Below, one piece after another: positions 2,889 to 34,794 of a DNA stretch of 35,015 nt. The notes beneath the pieces were generated by a model that worked only from the letters and a program-made list of their open reading frames with translations, was not told the DNA's origin and made no database searches. Within the stretch, counting starts at the first letter, position 1. The number at the start of each line of letters is the position of its first letter. The translations under genes and the position numbers were made by a program. The DNA is from a virus. The stretch lies in the IMG/VR virus record IMGVR_UViG_3300044619_000982, positions 1 to 35,015 of that record, one strand, 5' to 3'.

Positions 2889-3461
2889 TCAAACCTCCTG
2901 TGTCCCGTAATTGGTTCTGCAATTTTGCTGCGAGATGGCACGCTGTGCCGCAACGCTGGCCTTTAGGGCCTCGCTGACGCCCGGAAACTGACTGGCGGGT
3001 GCAGCGCTAGCCGAAGGTGCCTCCCCGCCGTCCACGACCTTCTGAAAGCCACTGTCGGCCTTCCAGCGAAGGACTTGTGCTGCGCGGTGCGCCATCTCTT
3101 CGGCTTCGGTTCGCCCGTCGCGGCAGAAATCTTGCTCAAGCTGAAGATGGCGCGGCAGTCCCGGTGGCGGCATCTGCTCGCGCATGATGTCCACCAGATT
3201 GGCAACCGTTGGCCAGTAGGTCGAGCGGCGGATGTGTTCGGTCAGCGCGGCGTTCAGCCGTTCGGCGGGATAGGCCCCGAGGCTTGCGTGCCATTCCGCC
3301 GCCATCAGCCGCATGTCCGCGCCTCGTCGCTCGCCGTAATTCGCCAAACAGCGGGCCAAGAGCCTGGCAACGTCAGTCGATGACGCGCGCTGCGGCAAAC
3401 CCGTGACGGGCAATGTCGGAAAGCTGTTCGAGTTGCGATTTTCCGCTATTTCGTTGACCAT
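2889..3461 (-). CDS. Candidate helicase loader / replisome organiser
   Basis: A 190-aa protein directly after the replication-initiator gene. Residues about 28-95 (ASSTDVARLLARCLANYGERRGADMRLMAAEWHASLGAYPAERLNAALTEHIRRSTYWPTVANLVDIM) have the helical layout and the YWPTVANL-type motif seen in phage helicase-loader-like proteins (G39P-like), followed by a low-complexity Ala/Ser tail. The start at 3461 overlaps the initiator gene by 89 nt, an unusually long overlap, but GGAG sits at normal distance before this ATG. Role: delivering the host replicative helicase to the origin; inferred from position and general resemblance. Confidence 0.55.
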   Translation of the reverse strand: MVNEIAENRNSNSFPTLPVTGLPQRASSTDVARLLARCLANYGERRGADMRLMAAEWHASLGAYPAERLNAALTEHIRRSTYWPTVANLVDIMREQMPPPGLPRHLQLEQDFCRDGRTEAEEMAHRAAQVLRWKADSGFQKVVDGGEAPSASAAPASQFPGVSEALKASVAAQRAISQQNCRTNYGTQEV

Positions 3462-4194
3462 TTCGCGCTCCGTGGGCGTTCAAGGCCCAGTTAATCCACG
3501 TCCGTTTCCAGTCGATTTTCGTAGCCCCGCCGCCGCTTTTTGCGGCCCAGTAGTTGGCGAATTTCGTGGCCTCGGCGCGCAAGTCGATGGCAGGCAACTG
3601 GCCTTCAATCCGCGCATTTTCGCCGTCTTCCAGCCAATCGTCGGGCACGACCGCGTCGGCCGGCCAGCGGGTTCCGCGAGCTTCGCGGCTTGGTTTTTTC
3701 AAAACGGGCTTGGCAGGGATTTGAGGTTCTGGTGGGTCAGCGCGAACAAGTTCGCGCGCCTCTCTAACTCCTTCCCCTTCCTGTTCCCCTTCCTGTTCCT
3801 GTTCCCCACGGACTTGCACTTGCTCAGGCATGTGCATGCACGTGCTTCCACCTGTTTCGACAGGTGCGGGGATTTCAGACTTGGATTCCCTTACGTTTAC
3901 TTGCTGATGCTTGTGCCAACTTGGAATGTGCGCGAACGTGCGCGCACCGACCTTGTACTTGACAACAAAGCCATATGAGGCGAGCGCCTCAAGCGCGGCA
4001 GCGAAGTCGATAGGGTCGTAAGGCAGCACGTCCAGCTTGATGGCGCGGGGCTTCCACTCAAAGCGCCCTTCCCGGTCGGCAACAGTCCACAGGCCCGCAA
4101 AGATGAGCCGCAGCGGAAAGCCTGAAGCCTGTTCCGCCTCAAACAGTTCTTCGTGGCGAAAGAACCCAGGCTTTATGGTTCTGATGCGCGCCAT
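3373..4194 (-). CDS. Phage replication initiation protein (O-like)
   Basis: A 273-aa protein starting MARIRTIKPGFFRHEELFEAE. Residues 1-100 resemble the N-terminal winged-helix region of phage replication proteins (FAGLWTVADREGRFEWKPRAIKLDVLPYD). A charged Glu/Gln linker (residues about 125-150) leads to a C-terminal part with FANYWAAKSGGGATKIDWKRTWINWAL, the W-rich motif common at the C-terminus of such initiators. ATG 4194 overlaps the stop of the upstream gene (TAATG). The linker DNA is rich in inverted and short direct repeats, as in lambda O where the origin lies inside the gene. Initiator assignment rests on architecture and on the neighbouring loader candidate and DnaA-like protein. 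Confidence 0.65.
   Translation of the reverse strand: MARIRTIKPGFFRHEELFEAEQASGFPLRLIFAGLWTVADREGRFEWKPRAIKLDVLPYDPIDFAAALEALASYGFVVKYKVGARTFAHIPSWHKHQQVNVRESKSEIPAPVETGGSTCMHMPEQVQVRGEQEQEGEQEGEGVREARELVRADPPEPQIPAKPVLKKPSREARGTRWPADAVVPDDWLEDGENARIEGQLPAIDLRAEATKFANYWAAKSGGGATKIDWKRTWINWALNAHGARNGQRNSGKSQLEQLSDIARHGFAAARVID
3740..3866. other. Candidate replication origin: cluster of repeats inside the initiator gene
   Basis: Within about 130 bp lie a perfect inverted repeat GCGCGAAC-AA-GTTCGCGC (3740-3757), iterated TTCC(T/C)GTTCC-like units (about 3768-3806), a palindrome GTGCATGCAC (3832-3841) and a perfect hairpin CACCTGT-TTCG-ACAGGTG (3849-3866). They fall in the low-complexity linker of the initiator gene. 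The repeats are visible; the origin role is inferred from the lambda precedent. Confidence 0.4.
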
Positions 4195-4754
4195 TAAAAC
4201 GCCTCCGCGAGTTGCTTGTTCTGCAAGGCCAGTGGCTTTGCCGTGTTCAAAATGATGCCAGCGTCGTTCAGGTCCGCGATGGGAACGCAGCGCCCCCACG
4301 TGTCGTTCAACTGGTCGCGGCGGCTCTGGGGCTTTTCCTCGTAGCGGTAGAGATTGCCTTCGCTGAAGGCCCACTGCTTCAGGGCGAAGAAATCCAGCGT
4401 GTGCAGTTCGTCCCGGTCGAGGAAGTGGTAGAGAAGAAGGTCAGCCTTCAGCTTGAACATCCAGCCGGGGTTCGACCCGCGTTCGGCGTGGGAATGGCGG
4501 TTGCTGAGATTGCGGTTTGACCACGTTTCAAGAAACAGGTTCCCCGTGTATCGGCTTTCAGCTTTCACCTCGACCGAGCGAAGGAAGCCCTGCTTGTTCG
4601 TGAACAGCATGTCGCCCACGGTTTCCTGCAAGGCCATGGCGAGCGGCCCCTTGTCGTTCCAGACAAGCTGCCCGTCCGTCTTCTCTTTGAGATACGGGCG
4701 CAGGATGGTCATGCTCTCGACTTCGACCATGCGGGCGGATTGGAAGGCTGACAT
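4194..4754 (-). CDS. Possible PD-(D/E)XK nuclease-fold protein
   Basis: A 186-aa protein. ATG 4754 is chosen because it overlaps the upstream stop (TAATG); the open frame extends further upstream but only antisense of that gene. Residues 45-66 contain GD (47-48), a short spacer and a hydrophobic strand ending VEVKAE (E62, K64), the D...ExK layout of PD-(D/E)XK nucleases. WMFKLKADLLLYHFLD follows and resembles the later strand-helix of such folds. No specific family is recognised. It sits between a DUF1064 operon member and the replication initiator, so a DNA-processing role is plausible. The nuclease assignment is an inference from motif spacing. Confidence 0.5.
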   Translation of the reverse strand: MSAFQSARMVEVESMTILRPYLKEKTDGQLVWNDKGPLAMALQETVGDMLFTNKQGFLRSVEVKAESRYTGNLFLETWSNRNLSNRHSHAERGSNPGWMFKLKADLLLYHFLDRDELHTLDFFALKQWAFSEGNLYRYEEKPQSRRDQLNDTWGRCVPIADLNDAGIILNTAKPLALQNKQLAEAF

Positions 4755-4969
4755 TATACCCTCACCGCATTGTTGATTTTGAACCGTGGCACCCCGCCGA
4801 CCATGTCGGAGCGGACGCCGATAACCGTGTGAGCGCTGTCGGTCTTTCCCTGGCTTTCGATTTCCACGTTGACCAGATAGCCACGGTCCGACCAGTAGGC
4901 CGTGATAATGCGGGCGAGCGCCTTTGCGCCCTCCACATTGCACCAGTCGCGTGTCGGCAGTTCCTTCAT
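4754..4969 (-). CDS. Small hypothetical protein of the early operon
   Basis: A 71-aa protein, MKELPTRDWCNVEGAKALARIITAYWSDRG at the N-terminus and a beta-rich C-terminal half (YLVNVEIESQGKTDSAHTVIGVRSDMVGG). The start overlaps the upstream stop by ATGA and its own stop overlaps the next start, so it is clearly part of the operon. The alternating pattern suggests a compact alpha-beta fold. No function is recognised. Confidence 0.65.
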   Translation of the reverse strand: MKELPTRDWCNVEGAKALARIITAYWSDRGYLVNVEIESQGKTDSAHTVIGVRSDMVGGVPRFKINNAVRV

Positions 4970-5277
4970 GCTTCCACCACGTCGATGTTGAGCAGCGCCT
5001 TCATGAGTTTGACCTTGAGGCGATAGGTCGGTAGGCGCACACCCTTCACGTCCAGAACGACGCGGGCCTGCTTTGCCTTGTCAAAGAAGATTTCGTCGGC
5101 CACGTAGTCGCAAATGTGGTGCCCGTTAATTTCCAGCCTGAACCGCACTTGGCGTTCAAGGTGGCTTATCTCCCCCGCCTTCTCGCGCAGCTTGCTTGCG
5201 CACCAATGCTGGTATTCACGCTGGCTGGCGAAGCGGCCCTCTTCGGTCGTCACTGGCTTGGCGCGATATTTGTTCAT
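4966..5277 (-). CDS. DUF1064 family phage nuclease-like protein
   Basis: A 103-aa protein starting MNKYRAKPVT. The pattern KYRAK...F(A)SQREYQHW (E21), LERQVRFRLEI, CDYVADEIFF (D57) and VVLDVKG (D76, K78) matches the DUF1064 family, thought to have a PD-(D/E)XK-like fold related to Holliday junction or VRR-type nucleases. Length is near the usual 100-130 residues and the putative metal-binding residues are kept. ATG 5277 is chosen over the longer open frame because the start overlaps the stop of the small upstream ORF (ATGA) and because the family begins at this KY motif. Likely role: processing of replication or recombination intermediates. Confidence 0.75.
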   Translation of the reverse strand: MNKYRAKPVTTEEGRFASQREYQHWCASKLREKAGEISHLERQVRFRLEINGHHICDYVADEIFFDKAKQARVVLDVKGVRLPTYRLKVKLMKALLNIDVVEA

Positions 5278-5366
5278 GGTTGCGCGGCCCCGGCAGGAGG
5301 GTGAAGCCGGAGCCGCGCGGGCACTGCACCGCCGGGCACGATTAGGCTGTGCAGTGCGTTGTTCAT
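5274..5366 (-). CDS. 30-aa coupled small ORF
   Basis: A 30-codon frame starting MNNALHSLIVPGGAVPARL. Its ATG overlaps the stop of the upstream gene (ATGA) and its stop overlaps the start of the DUF1064 gene (ATGA), so it exactly fills the space between two genes with coupled junctions. It may be a real microprotein or only a bridge that carries ribosomes to the next gene. No function is recognised. Confidence 0.45.
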   Translation of the reverse strand: MNNALHSLIVPGGAVPARLRLHPPAGAAQP

Positions 5367-5647
5367 ATGCCAGCCGCCTTTGTAAGCTGCGCGGCCTTCT
5401 CAGCGGTCGCGCTGGGGGCGGGCTTATCAAGAACCAACGCCGCCGGGTCGCGCACAGGCGTGCCCTTGATTTGCGCAGAGCAAATGCGCCAGTGCGCAAG
5501 CAGACGGTCAACCAAGTGCTGCTTTTTAGACATGGTGCCCAGACCGATAAGCGGGTCGCGGTTCACCTCGTCGATAATCTTGGCGATACTGTCGGCAGTC
5601 ATTTCCTGAATGCCGCTTTCGCGCTTGATAGCTTCAAGCAGTTTCAT
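5363..5647 (-). CDS. Hypothetical protein of the early operon
   Basis: A 94-aa protein, mostly helical (MKLLEAIKRESGIQEMTADSIAKIIDEVNRDPLIGLG...HLVDRLLAHWRICSAQIKG) with an Ala/Pro-rich tail. The start at 5647 lies 14 nt inside the end of the DnaA-domain gene and the stop overlaps the following small ORF. No family is recognised; no membrane segment or metal motif. Confidence 0.65.
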   Translation of the reverse strand: MKLLEAIKRESGIQEMTADSIAKIIDEVNRDPLIGLGTMSKKQHLVDRLLAHWRICSAQIKGTPVRDPAALVLDKPAPSATAEKAAQLTKAAGI

Positions 5648-6182
5648 GCTTCACCTCGTCCGTTTGGGGTTGACCCACCAGTCCCAGTTCAGCCAGTCGT
5701 TTCGCGCTGGCTTTTCTTGTCTGCCATTGGATTTCACGCTGCGTGGGAACGCGCGGGAGCTTCGGCAATCGCGGCGGTCGCGGCAGATTGATTGGCGGGC
5801 ACATGGTCGGCTGTGCCAGGTTGTGCATGACCGTCGTGTGGTCCTTGCCGCCGAAATATTGGCCTATGCGCGGATAGGACCACCCCCGCACTTCGCGGAG
5901 CCGGCGCATGGCGTCACGGCGCGCATAAACATAAGGTCGCTTGCGTTCGTTGCTGCACAAATCGGCAAAGGTGATAGCCGTGTTGTTCAGCGTGTTGTGC
6001 CACCACAGGATTTCTTCGACCAGCGAGCGCGTGTCTTGGCCCGGCGTGCGAATGTCGTCCGCAATCTTGCGCGCGTTCCAAATTGTCGATTCGGGGACAC
6101 GAAGGCGAAACGACGCCGCGCGCGTGCATTCATTGTGAATTGGTAAATTTGCGGTGGCGCATTCTTCCTTCACGATGACCAT
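5634..6182 (-). CDS. DnaA domain IV-like DNA-binding protein
   Basis: A 182-aa protein. Residues about 70-124 match the C-terminal DNA-binding domain of DnaA: ITFADLCSNER, ARRDAMRRLREVRGWSYPRIGQYF, then the signature GGKDHTTVMH (111-120). The AAA+ ATPase domain and domains I-II of full DnaA are absent, so it can bind DnaA-box-like sites but cannot hydrolyse ATP. A proline/basic tail follows. It is the second gene of the leftward early operon, just after the Cro-like regulator, with replication genes downstream. Likely roles: recognition of the phage or host origin, or transcriptional control; the choice is open. Family assignment is firm from the signature. Confidence 0.85.
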   Translation of the reverse strand: MVIVKEECATANLPIHNECTRAASFRLRVPESTIWNARKIADDIRTPGQDTRSLVEEILWWHNTLNNTAITFADLCSNERKRPYVYARRDAMRRLREVRGWSYPRIGQYFGGKDHTTVMHNLAQPTMCPPINLPRPPRLPKLPRVPTQREIQWQTRKASAKRLAELGLVGQPQTDEVKHETA

Positions 6183-6194
6183 GACAGTCTCCCC

Positions 6195-6413
6195 CTATTC
6201 TGCTGCGACGTTCTTTTCGCGATAGACTTGAAGAATGGCCGACGCGGTGACTTCGCCGTTCGTAGCCTCTTCAATGCGGGCCATAAGTTCTGGCCCCGGC
6301 CACTGGTTGCCCGTCTCAATGCGCGAGACGTTGGGCACGTTCGTGCCAATCAATTCGGCCACTTGGGCCTGTGTGAATTCGCGCTGTGTGCGCCAAGTCT
6401 TGAGGTCAATCAT
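6195..6413 (-). CDS. Cro-like HTH_XRE regulator
   Basis: A 72-aa protein starting MIDLKTWRTQREFTQAQVAELIGTNVPNVSRIETG, a classic XRE/lambda-repressor type helix-turn-helix at residues 8-36, with a short C-terminal helix region and no other domain. ATG 6413 is chosen because the HTH begins there; upstream extension would run through the operator. No Shine-Dalgarno sequence precedes it and the promoter -10 region ends only about 8 nt upstream, so its mRNA may be leaderless. It is the first gene of the leftward early operon, divergent from the repressor, as expected for Cro. Confidence 0.8.
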   Translation of the reverse strand: MIDLKTWRTQREFTQAQVAELIGTNVPNVSRIETGNQWPGPELMARIEEATNGEVTASAILQVYREKNVAAE

Positions 6414-6420
6414 GCCGCAA

Positions 6421-6448
6421 TCGTTACACGGGGTGTAATTTGCGTCAA
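6421..6448 (-). promoter_or_regulatory. Left early promoter (P_left)
   Basis: On the minus strand TTGACG (6448-6443) is followed after 16 nt by TAACGA (6426-6421). The -35 box is good and the -10 box weak. The operator 6424-6438 occupies the spacer and -10 region, so a bound repressor would block it. The same arrangement recurs at 6928-6955. Confidence 0.6.
6424..6438. promoter_or_regulatory. Operator O1, TTACAC-GGG-GTGTAA
   Basis: Perfect 6-bp inverted arms with a 3-bp spacer, over the left early promoter. The same motif is found at 6938-6952, and as TTGCAC-CGG-GTGCAA at 6904-6918. Likely bound by the repressor and/or the Cro-like protein. Confidence 0.7.
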
Positions 6449-6457
6449 GGGTAAAAC

Positions 6458-6472
6458 TTACACTGGGACGGC
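6458..6472. promoter_or_regulatory. Operator O2, half-conserved
   Basis: TTACAC is intact but the opposite arm is degenerate (GACGGC). It begins exactly 34 bp from O1, the same spacing as between the two right operators, which supports it as a weaker binding site upstream of P_left. Confidence 0.5.
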
Positions 6473-6506
6473 TGTAGACCGCAGAAGGCTTGTGGACAAT
6501 CAGAAT

Positions 6507-6836
6507 ATGGCCGACCCCGAGCGGAAGCCCCGCAAGACGTTCATCCGCGAATGGCGCAAGCACCACAACTTGACGCTAGAGAAGCTGGTTGACCGACTGG
6601 ACGCCATGTATGGGGTCAAAACCACGACGGCGACCCTGTCACGCACGGAAACCGGGCGGCAGGAATACACGCAGCACCTACTGGAAGCCTTGGCAGACGC
6701 CCTGCAATGCGAGCCTGCCGACCTTCTCATGCGCCCCCCAGGCGCTGACCAAGACATTCGCGTCGTCTGGCAGCAACTCACCCCCGAAGCCCAGCGCAAG
6801 GCCCTGGAGATTATCCGGGTTCTGAAGGCGTCTTAA
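6507..6836 (+). CDS. CI-like repressor, HTH_XRE type, short form
   Basis: A 109-aa protein starting MADPERKPRKTFIREWRKHHNLTLEKLVDRL. The XRE helix-turn-helix spans residues about 11-62 (LSRTETGRQEYT is the recognition region), followed by ADALQCEPADLLMRPP and a C-terminal helix LTPEAQRKALEIIRVLK that may dimerise. There is no S24/LexA-type peptidase domain, so RecA-stimulated self-cleavage is not expected. ATG 6507 starts the domain; a longer frame would cross the operators and the Cro gene antisense. No clear Shine-Dalgarno is present. It is divergent from the Cro-like gene and flanked by matching operators on both sides, hence the repressor call. Confidence 0.75.
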   Translation: MADPERKPRKTFIREWRKHHNLTLEKLVDRLDAMYGVKTTTATLSRTETGRQEYTQHLLEALADALQCEPADLLMRPPGADQDIRVVWQQLTPEAQRKALEIIRVLKAS

Positions 6837-6903
6837 TCCACAGACCATGGCCAAACCTACCGAGCGGTAGCGCACTGCTTTGTGCATTCCCGCGCATAAT
6901 TTG

Positions 6904-6918
6904 TTGCACCGGGTGCAA
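6904..6918. promoter_or_regulatory. Operator O3, TTGCAC-CGG-GTGCAA
   Basis: Perfect palindrome with 3-bp spacer, a one-base variant per arm of O1 and O4. It lies just upstream of the -35 box of the right early promoter and begins 34 bp before O4. Confidence 0.7.
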
Positions 6919-6927
6919 GCTTTACTG

Positions 6928-6955
6928 TTGACGTAACTTACACACGGTGTAACTT
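6928..6955 (+). promoter_or_regulatory. Right early promoter (P_right)
   Basis: TTGACG (6928-6933), 16-nt spacer, TAACTT (6950-6955). The surrounding 41 bp (6913-6953) match the left promoter region (6463-6423, minus strand) at 33 positions. It would start the rightward operon about 20 nt before the GTG start at 6979-6984. Confidence 0.6.
6938..6952. promoter_or_regulatory. Operator O4, TTACAC-ACG-GTGTAA
   Basis: Perfect 6-bp arms with 3-bp spacer lying between the -35 and -10 boxes of P_right, in the same register as O1 in P_left. Confidence 0.7.
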
Positions 6956-6978: not shown

Positions 6979-7140
6979 GTGGTGAACGCAGAACGACTTT
7001 CGGCCCTCGCAATCGCGCTGGCCATATTCATGGGGGCGGGTCTGACCGCCTTCAACATAGGGCGCTATGACGCCCAGCAGCGCATTTCGTGCAAGGCGCT
7101 GAAGCCCCTCACCCTTCCAGTGAAGGGGACGCTGCCATGA
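6979..7140 (+). CDS. Small single-pass membrane protein
   Basis: A 53-aa frame with GTG start at 6979 (or GTG 6982). AGGAGG at 6968-6973 is the best ribosome-binding site in this area. The sequence has one hydrophobic segment, ALAIALAIFMGAGLTAFNIG (residues about 9-28), and a short basic C-terminus. The stop overlaps the next start (ATGA). It is the first gene of the rightward operon. Function unknown; superinfection exclusion or a membrane anchor would be guesses. Confidence 0.65.
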   Translation: MVNAERLSALAIALAIFMGAGLTAFNIGRYDAQQRISCKALKPLTLPVKGTLP

Positions 7141-7352
7141 TTAAGACCAGATACGAAATCGAAGAGGTGACTCAGTCACCGGAACTCGTTGCGGCGTCGG
7201 AAGAGTTGAGCGCGGCGAAGCTGGTCAAGGAAGAGCTGGCCTTGACCCGCAATGACAGCGTCTCGCTGTCGATTGCTTACGAACTGGCCCTCACGCAATG
7301 GGCGCGCGCGTCCATGAAGTTTGAGCGCCTGTTGTCGGAGGCGCTGGCATGA
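7137..7352 (+). CDS. Small hypothetical protein, helical
   Basis: A 71-aa protein (MIKTRYEIEEVTQSPELVAASEELSAAKLVKEELALTRND...) with heptad-like helices. ATG 7137 is chosen because it overlaps the upstream stop (ATGA) and has AAGGGG upstream. The stop overlaps the next start in the same way. No family is recognised. It belongs to the block of small genes before the recombination genes. Confidence 0.65.
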   Translation: MIKTRYEIEEVTQSPELVAASEELSAAKLVKEELALTRNDSVSLSIAYELALTQWARASMKFERLLSEALA

Positions 7353-7576
7353 CCAACGTCACGCAAATGTTTCCCGACAGCGAGCGCCTGCACAGTCAGG
7401 ACGCTTTGAAGTCCGCCATCCGCCAGCAACTGGCGGCGGCGATTGGAATCCTGCAGCGCGAGGAAACCCCAGACGCGGACATATTGTTTGTCCTTCGCCG
7501 CATGGAGGAGGCCGCGAACCTTGTTCGCGTCATGTACGAAATGCGCAATCTGAAGGAGGACCTTCGCAATGTATAA
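7349..7576 (+). CDS. Small hypothetical protein, helical
   Basis: A 75-aa protein (MTNVTQMFPDSERLHSQDALKSAIRQQLAAAIGILQREETPDADILFVLRRMEEAANLVRVM) predicted to be nearly all helix. The start overlaps the upstream stop and its end overlaps the next gene by 8 nt. No function is recognised. Confidence 0.65.
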   Translation: MTNVTQMFPDSERLHSQDALKSAIRQQLAAAIGILQREETPDADILFVLRRMEEAANLVRVMYEMRNLKEDLRNV

Positions 7577-7814
7577 GGAATACGTCGGGCCTGACGCTAA
7601 ACTGCTGGACGAGGATGCCGCCGATATCGAAGCGGTCCACCAGCAACTGCGCGCCCTGCAGCGGCTCGTAGCCAAGCTGCAAATGTCCAGCAAGCACGGA
7701 CAACGCTGGCAGCAGGAAATGCAGGACAACATTGACAGCGTCCTGCACGACACCAGCACTGAATGGCTGGTGCAGAAGGGCCGCGACCTGACGGCCATTC
7801 GGGAGCCGTTCTAA
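7569..7814 (+). CDS. Small hypothetical protein, coiled coil
   Basis: An 81-aa protein with a long amphipathic helix (DIEAVHQQLRALQRLVAKLQMSSKHGQRWQQEMQDNIDSVL). GGAGG upstream of ATG 7569 fits a ribosome-binding site. Its TAA overlaps the ATG of the YqaJ gene (TAATG), so the two are coupled and it may work with the exonuclease, although nothing in the sequence shows how. Confidence 0.65.
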   Translation: MYKEYVGPDAKLLDEDAADIEAVHQQLRALQRLVAKLQMSSKHGQRWQQEMQDNIDSVLHDTSTEWLVQKGRDLTAIREPF

Positions 7815-8578
7815 TGGACCGCAAGGGATATATCGGCGGGTCAGACGCAAATATCATTCTGTCGGGCGATGCACAGCGCATTGCCCGGCTGGTCGCGGAG
7901 AAGCGCGGCGAAGTGGAACCGGAAGACCTGTCCCGGTCACTTCCGGTTCAGCTTGGCGTGTGGACTGAAGAGTTCAACAGGCGCTGGTATCACCTTCACA
8001 CTGGCATGGAAGTGACCGGGGTGGACGAAGTCTGGACGCACCCGAAGCATAATTTTATCCGTGCCAGGCTGGACGGATTTGTCGGCGAAGCGGTGTTCGA
8101 GGCAAAGCATGTCAACCCCTTCGGCGATATCGAAGCGGTCGTGCAGCGCTACATGCCGCAGCTGCACCACTACATGACGGTGACGGGCAAGCGCACGGCA
8201 ATACTCAGCGTACTGGTCGGCACCCAGCGCTGGGAATGTTTCACCGTCGATTACGACCCGTTCTATGCCGACTTGCTGCTGAATGCGGAATTGCAGTTCT
8301 GGAACAACGTCCAGAACGGCGGCACGGTCGAGCCAGTGACCGCAGAACCACCAAAGCCCCGCAATGCAAAGCTGAAGGTGGACATGTCGGGGCACAATGA
8401 GTGGGCGTCATGGGCCGACGCTTGGCTATCGACCAACAAGCCCGCGAAGATAAATGCGGGCGCGGCGAAGGAACTGAAAGCCTTGGTGCAGGACGATGCC
8501 GCAGAAGCATCGGGCCACGGGGTTGTCATTAAGCGCGCGGCAAACGGCAACCTGTCAATCCGCGAGGCGCGGTCATGA
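7814..8578 (+). CDS. YqaJ-family viral exonuclease
   Basis: A 254-aa protein. The N-terminus has GGSDA (8-12) and the helix with E52 (GVWTEEFNRRW). The catalytic core is LDG (D87) and FEAKH (E96, K98), the D...ExK motif of the lambda-exonuclease/YqaJ branch of PD-(D/E)XK nucleases. The helix QRYMPQLHHYMTVTGKRTAILSVLVG is the usual YqaJ continuation. It degrades 5' strands at DNA ends to give 3' overhangs for annealing. ATG 7814 is chosen from the TAATG coupling and the GGSDA spacing. It pairs with the ERF annealing protein two genes downstream as a Red-like recombination system, with an HNH nuclease in between. Confidence 0.85.
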   Translation: MDRKGYIGGSDANIILSGDAQRIARLVAEKRGEVEPEDLSRSLPVQLGVWTEEFNRRWYHLHTGMEVTGVDEVWTHPKHNFIRARLDGFVGEAVFEAKHVNPFGDIEAVVQRYMPQLHHYMTVTGKRTAILSVLVGTQRWECFTVDYDPFYADLLLNAELQFWNNVQNGGTVEPVTAEPPKPRNAKLKVDMSGHNEWASWADAWLSTNKPAKINAGAAKELKALVQDDAAEASGHGVVIKRAANGNLSIREARS

Positions 8579-8943
8579 AGCGCCCCGCAATCAGCGCCAG
8601 TATGAAGCTGGAAGCCCTGAAGGCGGGCCAGGTTCAGGCGGCTTGCTATATCTGCAAGCGCGTCTGTCCGTGGGACCAGTTCCACTTCGACCATATTCAG
8701 GCGCTTGTGGATTCCGGCACCCACGAAGCAAGCAATTTAGCGGTGATTTGTGTATGGTGTCACCGGGAAAAGTCGGCGTTCGAACACCAACGCAATTCCA
8801 AATCCAAGCGCCTGAAAGTGGCGCGCGAACTGCACGAAAAGATTGTGTCGGGCGAAATGGACCGCCCGCAAAGCAAACTTAAAGGCCGCAAGTTCAGCGG
8901 CTGGCGGAAGTTTAACGGGGAAGTTCGGAGGACAAACAAATGA
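8575..8943 (+). CDS. HNH endonuclease
   Basis: A 122-aa protein with the zinc-stabilised HNH motif: C24-x2-C27, then FDHIQALVDSGTHEASNLAVIC (D39, H40, N54) and C59-x2-C62-H63. Residues 70-122 are a basic tail that could contact DNA. Overlaps both neighbours by 4 nt and is embedded between the exonuclease and the annealing protein, so it is part of the recombination module and not an inserted homing nuclease. Substrate unknown; nicking or branch cleavage is possible. Confidence 0.85.
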   Translation: MKRPAISASMKLEALKAGQVQAACYICKRVCPWDQFHFDHIQALVDSGTHEASNLAVICVWCHREKSAFEHQRNSKSKRLKVARELHEKIVSGEMDRPQSKLKGRKFSGWRKFNGEVRRTNK

Positions 8944-9599
8944 CAATGCCAAAGGAAATTTCAGACGCCGTGTTGAGCGTCATGCAGGAAGTGGGCTACG
9001 TGCAAAAAACGGGTGAGAACAAGTTTTACGGTTACAAATACGCCAGCATTGAGAACGTGCTGGAGAAGGTGCAGCCCGCGCTTGTGAAGTGCGGCCTGGC
9101 GATTGTGCAGTCGGAAGTGTCCTACAACGTCATAGGTGACAGGGATTTAGTCGCTGCGAACTATGACTTTTTCCTGTCAAGCGGCGGGGCAACAGCGGGA
9201 CCGTATCGCATCACGGGCCTCGCCAGCATGCGCAACACCAAAGGCGGCTTTGACGACAAGTGTTTGAACAAGTGCCACACAGCAGCCCGCAAGTATTTCA
9301 TTCTTGGCTTATTCCAGATTCCGACAGGTGTCGACGCGGACGAAGATGACGACAAGCCGGCTGGCAAGCCGGCAGACAACAGCCGCCAGCCCGACCGCAG
9401 TCAGGCCGCGCGCGCGTTTGTCACCGAAAGCATTAAGGCCATTGGTTCACTGAAGACCGAAACCGCACTGGACGATTGGTATGCGGAGAACGCACCCAAG
9501 CTGGCGAGGCTGAAGGAAAGCTATGCCGACGAAGCCAAAATGATTGCGGGCGCTTTGGCAGAACAGCGCAAGGCGCTGGTCAGGGTGGCGGCTGAATGA
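8940..9599 (+). CDS. erf: ERF-family single-strand annealing protein
   Basis: A 219-aa protein. The N-terminal 130 residues match the ERF superfamily: YVQKTGENKFYGYKYASIENVLEKVQPALVKCGLAIVQ, then GLASMRNTKGGFDDKCLNKCHTAARKYFILGLFQIPTGVD. Residues about 135-155 are an acidic, disordered linker, and the C-terminal part is helical (ALDDWYAENAPKLARLKESYADEAKMIAGALAEQRKAL). It would anneal complementary strands made by the YqaJ exonuclease. Four-nt overlaps with both neighbours. Length is typical of P22 Erf-like proteins. Confidence 0.85.
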   Translation: MTMPKEISDAVLSVMQEVGYVQKTGENKFYGYKYASIENVLEKVQPALVKCGLAIVQSEVSYNVIGDRDLVAANYDFFLSSGGATAGPYRITGLASMRNTKGGFDDKCLNKCHTAARKYFILGLFQIPTGVDADEDDDKPAGKPADNSRQPDRSQAARAFVTESIKAIGSLKTETALDDWYAENAPKLARLKESYADEAKMIAGALAEQRKALVRVAAE

Positions 9600-9919
9600 A
9601 CACGAACAAGCGCCCCCAGTCTGAACTTTACCGCGAAGCCGCCATGAAGTGGGCGGACTTGGATGCTGCCGCGCGCATGCTTGAGGAAGGCAAGAGTGCC
9701 GTCCTAAGCCAGCGCATGACGGCACTGGGGGACATGGCCGTCAGCAAAGCAGAACTGCAAGTAAAGGCCAGCGACTTCTGGTCGGACTATATCAAGAAAA
9801 TGGTGCGCGCCAGGACGTTGGCAAATCAGGCGAAGGTCGAAGTCGAGTTTCTCCGCATGCGCCATTGGGAAGCCACGCAAGACCGCGCGGACCATAGGTA
9901 CGAGGCCCGAATGTCATGA
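9596..9919 (+). CDS. Hypothetical protein next to the annealing gene
   Basis: A 107-aa basic, helical protein (ELYREAAMKWADLDAAARMLEEGKSAVLSQRMTALGDMAVSKAELQVKASDFWSDYIKKMV). Similar small helical proteins commonly sit next to erf in phages, but I cannot name the family. Coupled to both neighbours by ATGA overlaps, so it probably belongs to the recombination module. No catalytic motif is visible. Confidence 0.65.
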   Translation: MNTNKRPQSELYREAAMKWADLDAAARMLEEGKSAVLSQRMTALGDMAVSKAELQVKASDFWSDYIKKMVRARTLANQAKVEVEFLRMRHWEATQDRADHRYEARMS

Positions 9920-10488
9920 CCGAAACGAAGCACATGACACTTTATGACCTTGGCCGGATTTATGACGATGCTTACGAGAACCGGGCGCGTCTGGAGTTTC
10001 CAACCCCTGAAATGAAGCGTGCGATGCACCGCGCAGGTATCCGCGCCGTTGTTGAGGCGCTGCGGGATGAGATGCTCCCCCCGAAACGGAAGGTGAGCGC
10101 CAGTAACACAATCGTGCGGGCGATTATCCTGCAAAAGTTTAACGAAATCCTCGCCAGCGATGGCGTGGACAAGGCGGCGGGTGCGGATACGGCTGCAAAG
10201 CCGGAAGCCATAGAGCGATCTTCACCCGCCGCCGACCGCATTGAAGCCCTTGAGGGTGAGGTTGAGAAGCTGCGTCACGAAGTCGCCGCCGCAACCACGC
10301 TCGCACAACTACTGAACAAATTGTTGGGCGCAGCAGAAGCCCGCGAGGCGCGGCTGCGTGCGGCGCTCAAGGCTATCGCCGTCAGGGCGGGGACGTTCGA
10401 GGGTCGCGGCAGTTACATTGCTTACGTCGAATTGGCTGGTGAGATTGAGAAAATGGCCGACGCCGCGCGGAACGGTGAAGAGCCATGA
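9916..10488 (+). CDS. Hypothetical coiled-coil protein
   Basis: A 190-aa protein. Residues 1-60 are compact (MTLYDLGRIYDDAYENRARLEFPTPEMKRAMHRAGIRAVVEALRDEML). Residues about 105-150 form a coiled coil (RIEALEGEVEKLRHEVAAATTLAQLLNKLLGAAEAREARLRAAL). The DNA of this gene holds the only GATC found in the window (10217-10220). No function is recognised. Coupled by ATGA overlap on both sides. Confidence 0.65.
   Translation: MTETKHMTLYDLGRIYDDAYENRARLEFPTPEMKRAMHRAGIRAVVEALRDEMLPPKRKVSASNTIVRAIILQKFNEILASDGVDKAAGADTAAKPEAIERSSPAADRIEALEGEVEKLRHEVAAATTLAQLLNKLLGAAEAREARLRAALKAIAVRAGTFEGRGSYIAYVELAGEIEKMADAARNGEEP
10217..10220. other. The single GATC tetranucleotide found in the window
   Basis: A hand scan of all 35 kb, including block boundaries, found GATC only here. 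See the finding on GATC depletion. Confidence 0.8.
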
Positions 10489-10613
10489 CCAACCCCACCG
10501 ACCCTTCACGTCTTGAACGCCTGATAGCTGCCCTTCTGGCTTTGCTGGCAGACAGAGAAGCCACGATTAAGGGGCTGCGGCGGGAACTGGACAGGAAGGA
10601 CGAAGAGCCATGA
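10485..10613 (+). CDS. Very small hypothetical protein
   Basis: A 42-aa frame (MTNPTDPSRLERLIAALLALLADREATIKGLRRELDRKDEEP), one amphipathic helix of coiled-coil type. The start overlaps the upstream stop and the stop overlaps the next start (both ATGA), which is good support for translation. No function is recognised. Confidence 0.5.
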   Translation: MTNPTDPSRLERLIAALLALLADREATIKGLRRELDRKDEEP

Positions 10614-10813
10614 CAGCGCACCCCTGCCCCAACTGTCGCGGCACTGGAATTGTCCGTCCGCACCGGAAGCTAACCGACGAACAGGTCGCCGATATGCGCC
10701 GTGACCTGGACGCGGGCGAGGCGTTGGCGTCGGTTGCCGCGCGCTATGGGGTAGCACCCAGCACGGCAGGGGCTATTCGTGACGGGCACTTGAGGAAGGA
10801 ACGAAGGGTATGA
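10610..10813 (+). CDS. Zinc-ribbon/HTH small protein
   Basis: A 67-aa protein. It begins with a CPNCRGTG knuckle (C6-x2-C9, DnaJ-type half zinc finger) followed by a helix-turn-helix of resolvase/homeodomain type, KLTDEQVADMRRDLDAGEALASVAARYGVAPSTAGAIRDGH. It is likely a small DNA-binding protein. It lies directly before the excisionase with ATGA coupling, so it may help control excision or early transcription; that role is inferred from position only. Confidence 0.65.
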   Translation: MTAHPCPNCRGTGIVRPHRKLTDEQVADMRRDLDAGEALASVAARYGVAPSTAGAIRDGHLRKERRV

Positions 10814-11163
10814 CCGTCAGGCCCGCGCGTATCCTGTTTGACATGGAAGAAACGGCGGAAATGCTAGGCATATCCACGCGCACGCTTGTGGCCCATGTCA
10901 ATGCCGGGGACATTCGCTATGTTCTTATCGGCAAGCGCACCCGGAAATTCACGCAAGCCGACATCGACGCTTTCATTGAGGCCCGCAGGCAATGTCCGTC
11001 TATCGCCCCAAAAATTCGCCGTACTGGCACTTTGACTTCGTTGTCAACGGTCGGCGGCTTCATGGCAGCACGGGCACAACGTCTCGCCGCGCGGCGGAAG
11101 CCGTCGAAGCCCGCCTCCGCCTCGACGCAGCCGAAGGCGCAAGCCGACGAAAACCAAGCCTGA
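10810..11163 (+). CDS. Excisionase-like MerR/HTH_17 protein
   Basis: A 117-aa protein. Residues 1-58 are a winged-helix excisionase domain (ILFDMEETAEMLGISTRTLVAHVNAGDIRYVLIGKRTRKFTQADIDAFIEARR). The remaining 57 residues are basic, low-complexity and lie over the integrase gene in another frame, so the fold ends about where the integrase begins. A long overlapping tail of this kind seems usual for excisionase/integrase pairs in alphaproteobacterial phages (from memory). It would bend DNA at attP/attL-attR and steer the integrase toward excision. Confidence 0.7.
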   Translation: MTVRPARILFDMEETAEMLGISTRTLVAHVNAGDIRYVLIGKRTRKFTQADIDAFIEARRQCPSIAPKIRRTGTLTSLSTVGGFMAARAQRLAARRKPSKPASASTQPKAQADENQA

Positions 11164-12083
11164 CACTGGACAAAGCCGCCGAACGCTATTTCTCCGAAGT
11201 CGCCAAGTTTCAGCCCAGTTCGAAAACCACCGAATACCAGCTTGCCAACCTATGCACGGGGCTTGGACTTCAAACGCCGCTGCACGATATCGACGGCCCC
11301 ATGTTGGCGGTCTATATCGCCAAGAGGCGGGCGAAAGTTTCCGACGCTTCGGTGAACCGCGAGCTGGAAGTCCTGCGCCGCATGATGCGCAGGGCCGAGA
11401 AGGTCTGGCAGGCCGACTGCCCCACCATAAACTGGACGGACTTCATGCTGCGCGAGCCGCAAGGGCGCGTGCGGGAATTGACGGCGGGGGAAGAGCAAAG
11501 GCTGTTCGAAGCCTTGCGGCAGGATTTGCACCCATTGGTTCGCTTTGCCCTGATAACGGGGGTAAGGCTCAGGAACGCAATCGAACTGACATGGGGTCAG
11601 GTGGACTTTGACGCGGGCGTCATTCGCCTACTGGTCAAGTCCAAGAAGCCAGGGGGCGAGGTTCACTTCGTACCCCTTATTCCCGAACTGGTCGCCCTGC
11701 TGTCAGCCGAACGGGGAAACCACAAGGAACGGGTCTTCACCTACGAAGTGGTCAGGGGTCGGCAGGGAAGGCGGAAAGGGCAACGGCACCCCTTCACCCA
11801 GACGGGCTGGCGAAGGGCTTGGGAACGGGCCTTGACGCAGGCAGGGATAAGCGACTTCCGGTTTCACGACTTGCGCCACACCGCCGCCACACGGACGCTC
11901 AGGGCCAGCCAGAACCTGAAGGTGGTTCAGAACCTTCTGGGCCACCGGGATATCGCCACCACGGCCCGCTATGCCCACGCGATGATTGACGACGTTCGGG
12001 CTGCGATGGCTGCTGTTGTGTCCCGGAATAGTCCCGAAGGAATTAAGCCGGTGGTCACCAAGCCTATGAAAAACAAGGCTTAA
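10992..12083 (+). CDS. int: Tyrosine-recombinase phage integrase
   Basis: A 363-aa protein. Residues 1-50 are a small N-terminal arm-binding region (MSVYRPKNSPYWHFDFVVNGRRLHGSTG), about 55-145 the SAM-like core-binding domain, and 160-340 the catalytic domain. Catalytic residues: R192 (TGVRLRNAIEL), lysine near 218, H292 and R295 (FHDLRHTAAT), H318 (LLGHRD) and nucleophile Y327 (TTARYAH). All are present, so the enzyme should be active. It starts 172 nt before the end of the excisionase gene. The attP core lies about 20 bp after its stop, and one pair of arm-type repeats lies inside its 3' end. It integrates phage DNA into a tRNA-Pro gene by inference from attP. Confidence 0.95.
   Translation: MSVYRPKNSPYWHFDFVVNGRRLHGSTGTTSRRAAEAVEARLRLDAAEGASRRKPSLTLDKAAERYFSEVAKFQPSSKTTEYQLANLCTGLGLQTPLHDIDGPMLAVYIAKRRAKVSDASVNRELEVLRRMMRRAEKVWQADCPTINWTDFMLREPQGRVRELTAGEEQRLFEALRQDLHPLVRFALITGVRLRNAIELTWGQVDFDAGVIRLLVKSKKPGGEVHFVPLIPELVALLSAERGNHKERVFTYEVVRGRQGRRKGQRHPFTQTGWRRAWERALTQAGISDFRFHDLRHTAATRTLRASQNLKVVQNLLGHRDIATTARYAHAMIDDVRAAMAAVVSRNSPEGIKPVVTKPMKNKA
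12020..12039. promoter_or_regulatory. Integrase arm-type sites, left pair
   Basis: GTCCCGGAA (12020) and GTCCCGAAG (12031), 11 bp apart, inside the 3' end of the integrase gene. The same doublet with the same spacing recurs at 12238-12257 on the other side of the attP core. Candidate arm sites for the integrase N-terminal domain. Confidence 0.5.
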
Positions 12084-12102
12084 CGGGTCAGCAACTTCTT
12101 GC

Positions 12103-12141
12103 TCCCAAACCAGATGCGCTACCAGACTGCGCTACGCCCCG
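12103..12141 (-). other. attP: attP core: 5' half of a tRNA-Pro(UGG) gene
   Basis: Read on the minus strand from 12141, the sequence has the acceptor strand CGGGGCG, TA, a D arm with AGTCTGGTA, the 5' anticodon stem and the loop TTTGGGA with anticodon TGG, as in bacterial tRNA-Pro. Identity stops after the loop; the 3' stem, T arm and acceptor 3' strand are absent. This 39-bp segment next to the integrase gene and between repeat doublets is the expected attP core, and the host attB should be a tRNA-Pro(UGG) gene. Confidence 0.75.
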
Positions 12142-12237
12142 ACGGCTGGAATGGCGCAGTTCTTAGGCTTTTTGGAACATGCACACAAGACGCAAACTTG
12201 CAAAAACGAGAACGAACAGGACACGACCTGCATAGGA

Positions 12238-32207: not shown

Positions 32208-32614
32208 TAGGCGTTCCCGTCTGTAAGCGTGAACGTATTGATAGTGAAAGACTGCCCCGCCGTGAAGGACGTGCTGCTGACTTCCATGTCCCCGCCACCA
32301 CCCGTCGCCGTGACCGTGCCTTGCAAGTGGCAAGTCGTTCCCGCGCTGTCGTAAAGCCGGAAATGCGCCGCCGTGCCCGTGTTGTTGGCCGACAGGTCTT
32401 GCCAGCTTCCGGCCAAGGCTTTCGTGCCGCCCGACGCATTGGCCATCCAGTCACTAGGCAGTGTCAGTTCCGCCAGGATGGTCCCGCTGTCAGCGGTTCC
32501 GCAGTTGGCAGGGGCAGCCCCCGTGCGAATGCGGATGATGGCACTTGTCCCCACCGTGGTTTCAATCGCGTCAAGGCGCGCGTTGCGCACCGCTGTCGAT
32601 AGCTGAATGGCCAT
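32207..32614 (-). CDS. Structural protein
   Basis: A 135-aa protein, MAIQLSTAVRNARLDAIETTVGTSAIIRIRTGAAPANCGTADSGTILAELTLPSDWM..., beta-rich with a C-terminal Thr-rich tail. Proteins with this start are found beside portal genes in several phages (from memory). It is coupled by TAATG to the portal gene. Probably a minor head protein. Confidence 0.65.
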   Translation of the reverse strand: MAIQLSTAVRNARLDAIETTVGTSAIIRIRTGAAPANCGTADSGTILAELTLPSDWMANASGGTKALAGSWQDLSANNTGTAAHFRLYDSAGTTCHLQGTVTATGGGGDMEVSSTSFTAGQSFTINTFTLTDGNA

Positions 32615-34794
32615 TAGTTGATTGACCCCGTCACAATTTCCACCCGCTTCTCACCCGTGCGCGGGTCTTTGACCAAACGCTTCGGCGCGGCCATGACACC
32701 GGCCACTTGTGCAATCGCCTGCGCTGCCTGCCCGATACCGTCCGCCGCCTGGGCCATGACCTGTGCGTTCTGCGCCATGACTTCCGCCGTCTGGGCCTGC
32801 ACCGCGATAATGGCCTGCGCCGTCTGCTGCTGTGCCGCCACCATGGCTTCCTCGCCCGGTGTCAGGTAGCTGATGCTGGGCCCTTCCATGTCGTCGCCTT
32901 CCATGGGCTCTGCCGTGGCACGGGCGCGAATGCTCGACTTCATGCTGGCCTCGCGCATGGTGTTGACGTGGCCCTGCCGGTCGGACACGAACTTGAACTG
33001 CGCCAACTGCATGTCACGCTGATGCTTCATGTCTTCGGCTTGCTGCTGGCGGACCATTTGCTGCTGCTGGGCTTCGGCGTCCATGGCCATTTGCTCCCGC
33101 TTGGCCATGAGGATGAGCGCCTGCTTTTCCTTCTCCGCCTCAATCTGCACCATGGCGGGATTGGGCTGCTGCTGGGCCATTTGCGCCTGCTGTTCCTGCG
33201 CCTGCTTCAGCTTGTCCAGAAGCAAGCGTTTCTTTGGCAGGCTCGAGGCTTCAATAAGCACATCAGGCGGTATGGGCATGCCCGCTTGCACCAGTTCAGC
33301 CAAACGCTGGAACTGCTCTTCCTGAATGACTGCCGTGTCCGGGGTCGAGTCGATGACAATGTCCACGTCCATGTCGGCGGGCGCGTTCTGCATCTGCATG
33401 GCAGGCTGGCCCGTCATGGGGTCAATCTGGGGCATGCCCGTCATGGGGTCCATGGCAGGCTGGGGCACGTTCAAGCCCACGAAGCGCGGGGCATTCTCGT
33501 CGTCGGTCACCCGTATCCACTTCGGCTCGTTCCAAAACTGCTTGATGGCGTCCCAGAAGGCCCGATAGCACCTGAGCGTCCAGTCGTCGAACTGCGCCAG
33601 AAGCGGGGCCTGTTCGGTGAGGCCAGCCTGCTGTTCGGCCAAGATAGCGCGGCCCGATTGGCTGGCCCCCTGCCGACCGACAATGCCAGGTGTCGGGCTT
33701 TGACGGCGCATTTCTTCCTTGGCGTCCCGCAAGAGTTCTAGATGACCGGGAGCCAGGTTCCGGTCGCCCAGCTCCTCAATCTGCCCCTCGCGTGCTTCGA
33801 TAATCCCGTCCGGCTTCGCCCACTGCTGCCTGACCGTATCAATGTCGATGACGCCGGGGTCAACCCTGAGCTTGGCCACGTTCAGGATATGCACGGCCTT
33901 CGAACGCGCCTTGTTGATGGCGTCCTGCGGCCCAAGCATGTCCCTGACAATGCCATAGCGGCAGTTGTCGATGTCCACGTAAGCCGACTGCGCAAGGATG
34001 GCACACCGCGGGCGTCCGGTCTTGCTGTCGAGGAAGGGGCTGGGGCCGCTTTCCAGAATGCCGCCTGAGACGAACACACACTTCTCCCAGTCGCCGCCTT
34101 TGCGCTTGTACATCTCAAAGCACATGATGCGGCGCGCTCGGCTGTCCACCCACGCCCAGCCGTCCTTCGGTCGGTCGCGGTAGGTGTCGGAAGCGCTCTG
34201 GTCGTAATTGAACGATGTGCGGATGGTTTCGGCTTGGTCAGGGTAGAGGTCGATGATGTCCTGCTCGTCCATCCACTTGGCGATGCCCATGTACCTTGCG
34301 TCACCAAAGTCCGTGTCGCGGGAATATGGGTCATAGAAGAACTCTTCGGGCCGGATGCGGCGCAGGCCAATCTCAGCCCCCTCGCCCATTTCCGTCACGC
34401 CCGCACAAATGCCCCAGACCAGAAAGTCCTTCAGGCAATCGCGGCGCTTTGATTGGAACCGCGTCACGTCCGCCACATAGCGCAGCCCGTCCGTGGCGAC
34501 TTCGGCGCTATCTTGGTCCTTCGGCGTGCGGCCCCAGCCCTTCGGGTCGGTTCTTCCGCGCTCCACAATGCCGATGATGGCGTTGACGGCAGGCTTCACA
34601 TGATTGAACGCAAGGGCGGGCTGGCCACGCGCCTCGAGCGTGCGGCGTTCGGCGTCGGTCCACTGGATACCGTCATAGTAGTTCTGCCAGACCTGAGCGT
34701 CCCGGCGCGCGCGGTCCAGCATATCCATGGCGACCGTCGCTTTGCGCTTGAGGTCGGCAAGATAGGCGTCCGCTTCTTTCTGGTCATAAGCCAT
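32614..34794 (-). CDS. Portal protein, P22 gp1-like
   Basis: A 726-aa protein; P22 portal has 725. N-terminal helices (AVMDMLDRARRDAQVWQNYYDGIQWTDAERRTLEARGQPALAFNHVKPAVNAIIGI; KP-x-VN-x-I-x-G is typical) are followed by the wing and stem region (EEFFYDPYSRDTDFGDARYMGIAKWMDEQDI), the clip/stem with PTPGIVGRQGASQSGRAILAEQQAGLTE, and a C-terminal Gln/Ala/Met-rich coiled-coil barrel (about 560-700) as in P22. Twelve copies form the DNA channel at the packaging vertex. Follows the terminase by TAATG. Confidence 0.9.
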   Translation of the reverse strand: MAYDQKEADAYLADLKRKATVAMDMLDRARRDAQVWQNYYDGIQWTDAERRTLEARGQPALAFNHVKPAVNAIIGIVERGRTDPKGWGRTPKDQDSAEVATDGLRYVADVTRFQSKRRDCLKDFLVWGICAGVTEMGEGAEIGLRRIRPEEFFYDPYSRDTDFGDARYMGIAKWMDEQDIIDLYPDQAETIRTSFNYDQSASDTYRDRPKDGWAWVDSRARRIMCFEMYKRKGGDWEKCVFVSGGILESGPSPFLDSKTGRPRCAILAQSAYVDIDNCRYGIVRDMLGPQDAINKARSKAVHILNVAKLRVDPGVIDIDTVRQQWAKPDGIIEAREGQIEELGDRNLAPGHLELLRDAKEEMRRQSPTPGIVGRQGASQSGRAILAEQQAGLTEQAPLLAQFDDWTLRCYRAFWDAIKQFWNEPKWIRVTDDENAPRFVGLNVPQPAMDPMTGMPQIDPMTGQPAMQMQNAPADMDVDIVIDSTPDTAVIQEEQFQRLAELVQAGMPIPPDVLIEASSLPKKRLLLDKLKQAQEQQAQMAQQQPNPAMVQIEAEKEKQALILMAKREQMAMDAEAQQQQMVRQQQAEDMKHQRDMQLAQFKFVSDRQGHVNTMREASMKSSIRARATAEPMEGDDMEGPSISYLTPGEEAMVAAQQQTAQAIIAVQAQTAEVMAQNAQVMAQAADGIGQAAQAIAQVAGVMAAPKRLVKDPRTGEKRVEIVTGSIN

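Follow-up and report, generated by a model that had tools for sequence, protein, structure and literature searches.

Which circuit is built from the two near-duplicate promoter modules that flank a short repressor gene in this viral genome, and which proteins would read them? The window analysed here is the whole virus record, 35,015 bases in length. Throughout this record the palindrome TTRCACnnnGTGYAA has exact matches at three positions only (6424, 6904 and 6938), and the random scatter named in the preliminary description as evidence against operators was not seen. Dinucleotide shuffles gave a chance expectation of 0.01 sites on average, none of 100 shuffles reached three, and no additional sites were found in the record even with two mismatches allowed. 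The features of the region are as follows.

6195-6413, minus strand: Cro-like HTH protein P0002, 72 aa (HTH_3, E=9.9e-10), heading the leftward replication operon
6421-6448, minus strand: predicted leftward early promoter (-35 TTGACG at 6448-6443, weak -10 TAACGA at 6426-6421, 16-bp spacer)
6424-6438: left primary operator TTACACGGGGTGTAA, exact motif match in the spacer/-10 region of the leftward promoter
6458-6472: left upstream half-site TTACACTGGGACGGC, 34 bp from the left primary operator
6507-6836, plus strand: CI-like repressor P0001, 109 aa, XRE HTH (HTH_31/HTH_3; phrog_2967, transcriptional regulator)
6904-6918: right upstream operator TTGCACCGGGTGCAA, exact motif match, 34 bp from the right primary operator
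6928-6955, plus strand: predicted rightward early promoter (-35 TTGACG at 6928-6933, weak -10 TAACTT at 6950-6955, 16-bp spacer)
6938-6952: right primary operator TTACACACGGTGTAA, exact motif match in the spacer of the rightward promoter

The XRE/CI-type repressor gene sits between two predicted promoters that point outwards, and the shared operator palindromes are present at both. Comparison of positions 6463-6423 (minus) with 6913-6953 (plus) gave 33 identities out of 41, as had been claimed before; TTGACG occurs in both modules, and the palindrome, TTACACnnnGTGTAA, covers the spacer and the first part of the -10 in both cases. The preliminary description had also placed a second operator exactly 34 bp upstream on either side. 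On the right this is correct (6904 versus 6938, exact), but on the left only the spacing holds: the site at 6458-6472 is a half-site, with the proximal TTACAC kept and the distal half, GACGGC, degenerate (position weight matrix scores of 8.3 and -9.0, respectively). The distance of 34 bp, equated earlier with about three helical turns, corresponds to a computed 3.2 turns and so is not an exact three. A simple scan passed no promoter of the sigma-70 consensus type (both -10 hexamers are weak), and the search for the repressor gene's own promoter gave no confident identification.

The operons on both sides comprise:

3373-6182, minus strand: remainder of the leftward operon, counterpart of the lambda pR operon
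3373-4374, minus strand: replication initiation protein
4966-5511, minus strand: RusA-like/DUF1064 protein
5634-6182, minus strand: DnaA_C-like HTH protein (PF08299, E=3e-15)
6979-12083, plus strand: rightward operon, counterpart of the lambda pL operon, small ORFs first
7763-8578, plus strand: YqaJ-type exonuclease
8575-8943, plus strand: HNH
8940-9599, plus strand: Erf
10810-11163, plus strand: Xis-like protein (HTH_17, excisionase-like)
ending at 12083, plus strand: integrase

The region is a temperate-phage immunity region whose layout mirrors that of lambda: the repressor gene runs with the exonuclease/Erf/xis/int operon, and the divergent cro-like gene opens the replication operon. The lambda record places cI, N, gam, bet, exo, xis and int on the minus strand and cro, cII, O and P on the plus strand; there too, the repressor gene is flanked by outward early promoters that share operators, cro is the first gene of the replication operon and cI is co-directional with the recombination/xis/int operon. 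The earlier statement that the window is unlike lambda in having the repressor gene and one early operon in the same direction was therefore wrong, since cI also runs with the pL operon. There are, however, clear differences: lambda has three operators per promoter and the window phage two, their spacing is 20-24 bp in lambda (from coordinates in its record) and 34 bp here, and rexAB is absent between the repressor gene and the second promoter. The DnaA_C-like protein of the leftward operon lacks the rest of DnaA; the origin of the phage may contain DnaA boxes to which it binds.

The repressor itself is also unlike lambda CI in its small size (109 aa) and in lacking the CI C-terminal domain. 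Its AlphaFold model (pLDDT 88) consists of an HTH domain and two short helices; Foldseek matches include P22 c2, TP901-1 CI and 434 Cro, and profile and fold searches match P22 c2, 434, TP901-1 CI and other XRE domains. The likeness to the P22 c2 and 434 repressors concerns their N-terminal HTH domains; unlike these repressors, P0001 has just a short helical tail after this domain. A domain search detected no C-terminal peptidase family, the part of lambda CI that serves oligomerisation and self-cleavage. P0001 is not classed as a cleavable CI-type repressor, and would be CI-like in its work at operators only. Since the model shows just two short helices besides the HTH domain, and no peptidase domain was detected, induction through RecA-stimulated self-cleavage, as in lambda CI, is unlikely. 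The sole LexA-type GTTC-N7-GTTC match in the window (at 4470) is at chance level as an indication of SOS control. Literature searches returned no paper on the P0001-type repressor family.

The same layout is annotated in Rhizobium phage 16-3 (PL, OL1/OL2, c, Pc, OR1/OR2 and PR), which has a pair of operators for each outward promoter, as in the window. In both phages one operator lies in the spacer/-10 region and the other at or upstream of the -35, and the 16-3 c gene is co-directional with xis/int, like the repressor gene of the window. The operators of 16-3 differ in sequence and are spaced 17 and 26 bp centre to centre (record coordinates), compared with 34 bp in the window. P0001 was considered as a homologue of 16-3 C and rejected: C has 263 aa and shows no detectable similarity (BLASTP E=22). 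In a recent survey of S. meliloti prophages, operators of lambda and 16-3 were sought and none was found, which left different operators possible (PMC12429752).

An exact search for two full palindromes of the window motif 34 bp apart matched nothing in viral contigs, and this route to relatives was dropped. Since the operators diverge too fast for exact searches, the repressor protein was used instead to trace relatives: it and a five-member alignment, taken as queries, yielded about 80 viral loci and one Mesorhizobium contig. Loci with short flanks were discarded, as were those with identical repressors, which left 67 for comparison, among them the window; most of these encode repressors of about 100-120 aa. 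As a control, left flanks were paired with right flanks of other loci. The palindrome score shared between left and right flanks within a locus exceeded the 95th percentile of this cross-locus control in 19 of the 67 loci and the 99th in six; a plain ungapped left/right match did so in 20 and 11 loci, respectively. The left palindrome is located 81-89 bp before the repressor start (about -85) in 21/67 loci, and a CTTGAC- or CTTGC-type -35 adjoins it in most relatives. The operator sequence is group-specific (e.g., TGTGCAC, TGTTAG, TTTTAG, TGTACG and TTACAC). The same double module with its own operator sequence is clearly present in about a third of the loci (approximately 20/67); the remaining relatives may have non-palindromic or more diverged sites. 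Two loci, L005 and L094, carry on both repressor flanks an extra CTACTAGTGYAAC element besides the GTGYAAC-type sites, and this subgroup may use an asymmetric operator.

For the second sites, a position weight matrix was built for each locus from its own primary operators, and the best additional site within 60 bp was recorded. Among 18 non-redundant loci this site was 33-36 bp away in 11 on the left (p=2.5e-11) and in 14 on the right (p=3e-12); both p-values treat loci as independent and are optimistic, as the loci share ancestry. This spacing, 34 bp in the window, is consistent with cooperative binding. Left second sites scored lower than right ones (median 4.8 vs 14.2 bits, p=3e-4), and on the left it is the promoter-proximal half that is kept (8.7 vs -4.2 bits, Wilcoxon p=1.9e-5, 18 loci); the right second site showed no half-site bias. 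Because the same left asymmetry recurs across the 18 loci, the half-site at 6458 is a family trait and not decay in the window phage. The half turned towards the repressor gene is the degenerate one, an orientation suggesting that the weak left upstream site is shaped by the repressor's own promoter.

We compared the similarity of operator half-sites between loci with that of the proteins by Mantel tests (17 loci). For the repressor, the correlation with the operator was r=0.62 for helix 3 and 0.30 for the rest of the protein; for the cro-like protein, these values were 0.60 and 0.40. Both helices stay significant when the other protein is controlled for (p=1e-4 and 3e-4), and in a scan of all 7-residue windows the best-predicting ones fall on helix 3 in both proteins. 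Restricted to 11 loci with repressor identity below 50%, the analysis gave r=0.53 for helix 3 against 0.01 for the rest of the repressor, and 0.70 against 0.17 for the cro-like protein. In 46 loci outside the operator definition, helix-3 similarity predicted the match of the trained operator to the flanks (r=0.33, p=0.0002), a value unchanged after controlling for the rest of the protein. In some loci the two helices are near-identical, e.g., THGAISQ and THGAVSQ in L038. The helices of the repressor and the cro-like protein also co-vary mutually (r=0.43), and part of each protein's operator signal could come from the other. The operator co-varies with both helices much more closely than with the remainder of each protein; this is strong indirect support, and the strongest in the analysis, for the view that the two proteins read the same sites, like CI and Cro.

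The earlier proposal, in which shared operators silence both outward early promoters, is supported in its core: the anatomy recurs in relatives with different operators, and the operator sequence tracks helix 3 of both HTH proteins. We estimate a probability of about 0.9 that the region is a mirrored, lambda-wired temperate-phage immunity region with the following repressor/Cro-like switch. In the lysogen, dimers of the 109-aa repressor would occupy the operator inside each early promoter, blocking RNA polymerase, as well as the second site about 34 bp upstream; the leftward cro/replication and rightward recombination/integration operons would be silenced together. Once the repressor is lost, the 72-aa Cro-like protein would compete for the same operators and lock in lytic growth. 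On the left, the upstream site, weak and half-degenerate, lies toward the repressor's own promoter and would probably tune repressor synthesis, a form of autoregulation.

The 72-aa protein might be assigned another part, as its Cro function comes from position and fold alone and its Pfam matches are for the most part to HTH families of a generic kind; the 109-aa repressor could be the sole binder and P0002 a CII-like activator or a regulator acting elsewhere. This is improbable, because helix 3 of the Cro-like protein is no worse a predictor of the operator than that of the repressor, and an independent one, and positional equivalents of P0002 in relatives match HTH_3 and, in some cases, YdaS and P22_Cro. 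The palindrome at 6904-6918 was listed as terminator-like by a simple scan and might be taken for the terminator of the repressor gene; its stem, however, has only 6 bp and no real T run follows, whereas the site is an exact match to the operator motif at 34-bp spacing and relatives have their own operator variant at the equivalent position, which makes an operator by far the better reading and a terminator very improbable.

Many bacterial regulators commonly bind inverted repeats as long as these, and a host regulator that binds the palindromes would place the phage promoters under host control. Operators that differ phage by phage, tracking helix 3 of the phages' own proteins, leave this only a very slight chance. 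The identity of 33/41 positions over 41 bp might also be the functionless by-product of a recent duplication, but unrelated operators are each doubled across the repressor in many relatives and the pairing is thus maintained while the sequence changes; of the explanations weighed here, a mere duplication is barely credible.

A further departure from lambda concerns the start of the cro-like gene in the mirrored switch that we favour. The ATG of P0002 is 18 nt from the centre of the left operator, and the ATG of the cro-like gene falls 15-19 nt past this centre in the 20 loci whose left gene could be identified (in three of the 20 an upstream TTG at 9 nt was read first, with the in-frame ATG at 18). 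As the -10 overlaps the operator, a transcript would begin at or beside the ATG; the cro-like mRNA is predicted to be leaderless, unlike that of lambda, and the Cro-like protein would probably be translated from it.

With this analysis, a family of short, uncharacterised phage repressors gains operator coordinates. It is conceivable, at somewhat less than even odds, that a large, experimentally uncharacterised phage group uses a minimal two-operator switch of this kind, with dimers of an approximately 110-aa repressor at sites fixed 33-36 bp apart and a helix-3 specificity code. If so, the spacing would be about one helical turn beyond the 24 bp of lambda, and a repressor of this length without a C-terminal domain, at such wider spacing, would either cooperate through some other contact or lack cooperativity altogether. 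Two features, the fixed spacing and the weakness of the left half-site, are targets for asking if a repressor can bind cooperatively when it has no CI-type C-terminal domain. In the same case, the helices 3 of the repressor and the Cro-like protein would together form a readable code; the rule that they predict the operator is testable and would allow immunity groups to be assigned by sequence.

Two observations concern other parts of the genome. Just past the integrase stop, a stretch of about 40 bp (12100-12142) corresponds to the 5' half of a gene for tRNA-Pro(TGG); it is 93-97.5% identical to the tRNA-Pro genes found in rhizobial phages. This segment is probably the attP core, which would imply integration into the tRNA-Pro gene of a Rhizobiales-like host. 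A P22-like portal protein (32614-34794, minus strand; PF16510, E=2e-96) suggests a podovirus-like head module.
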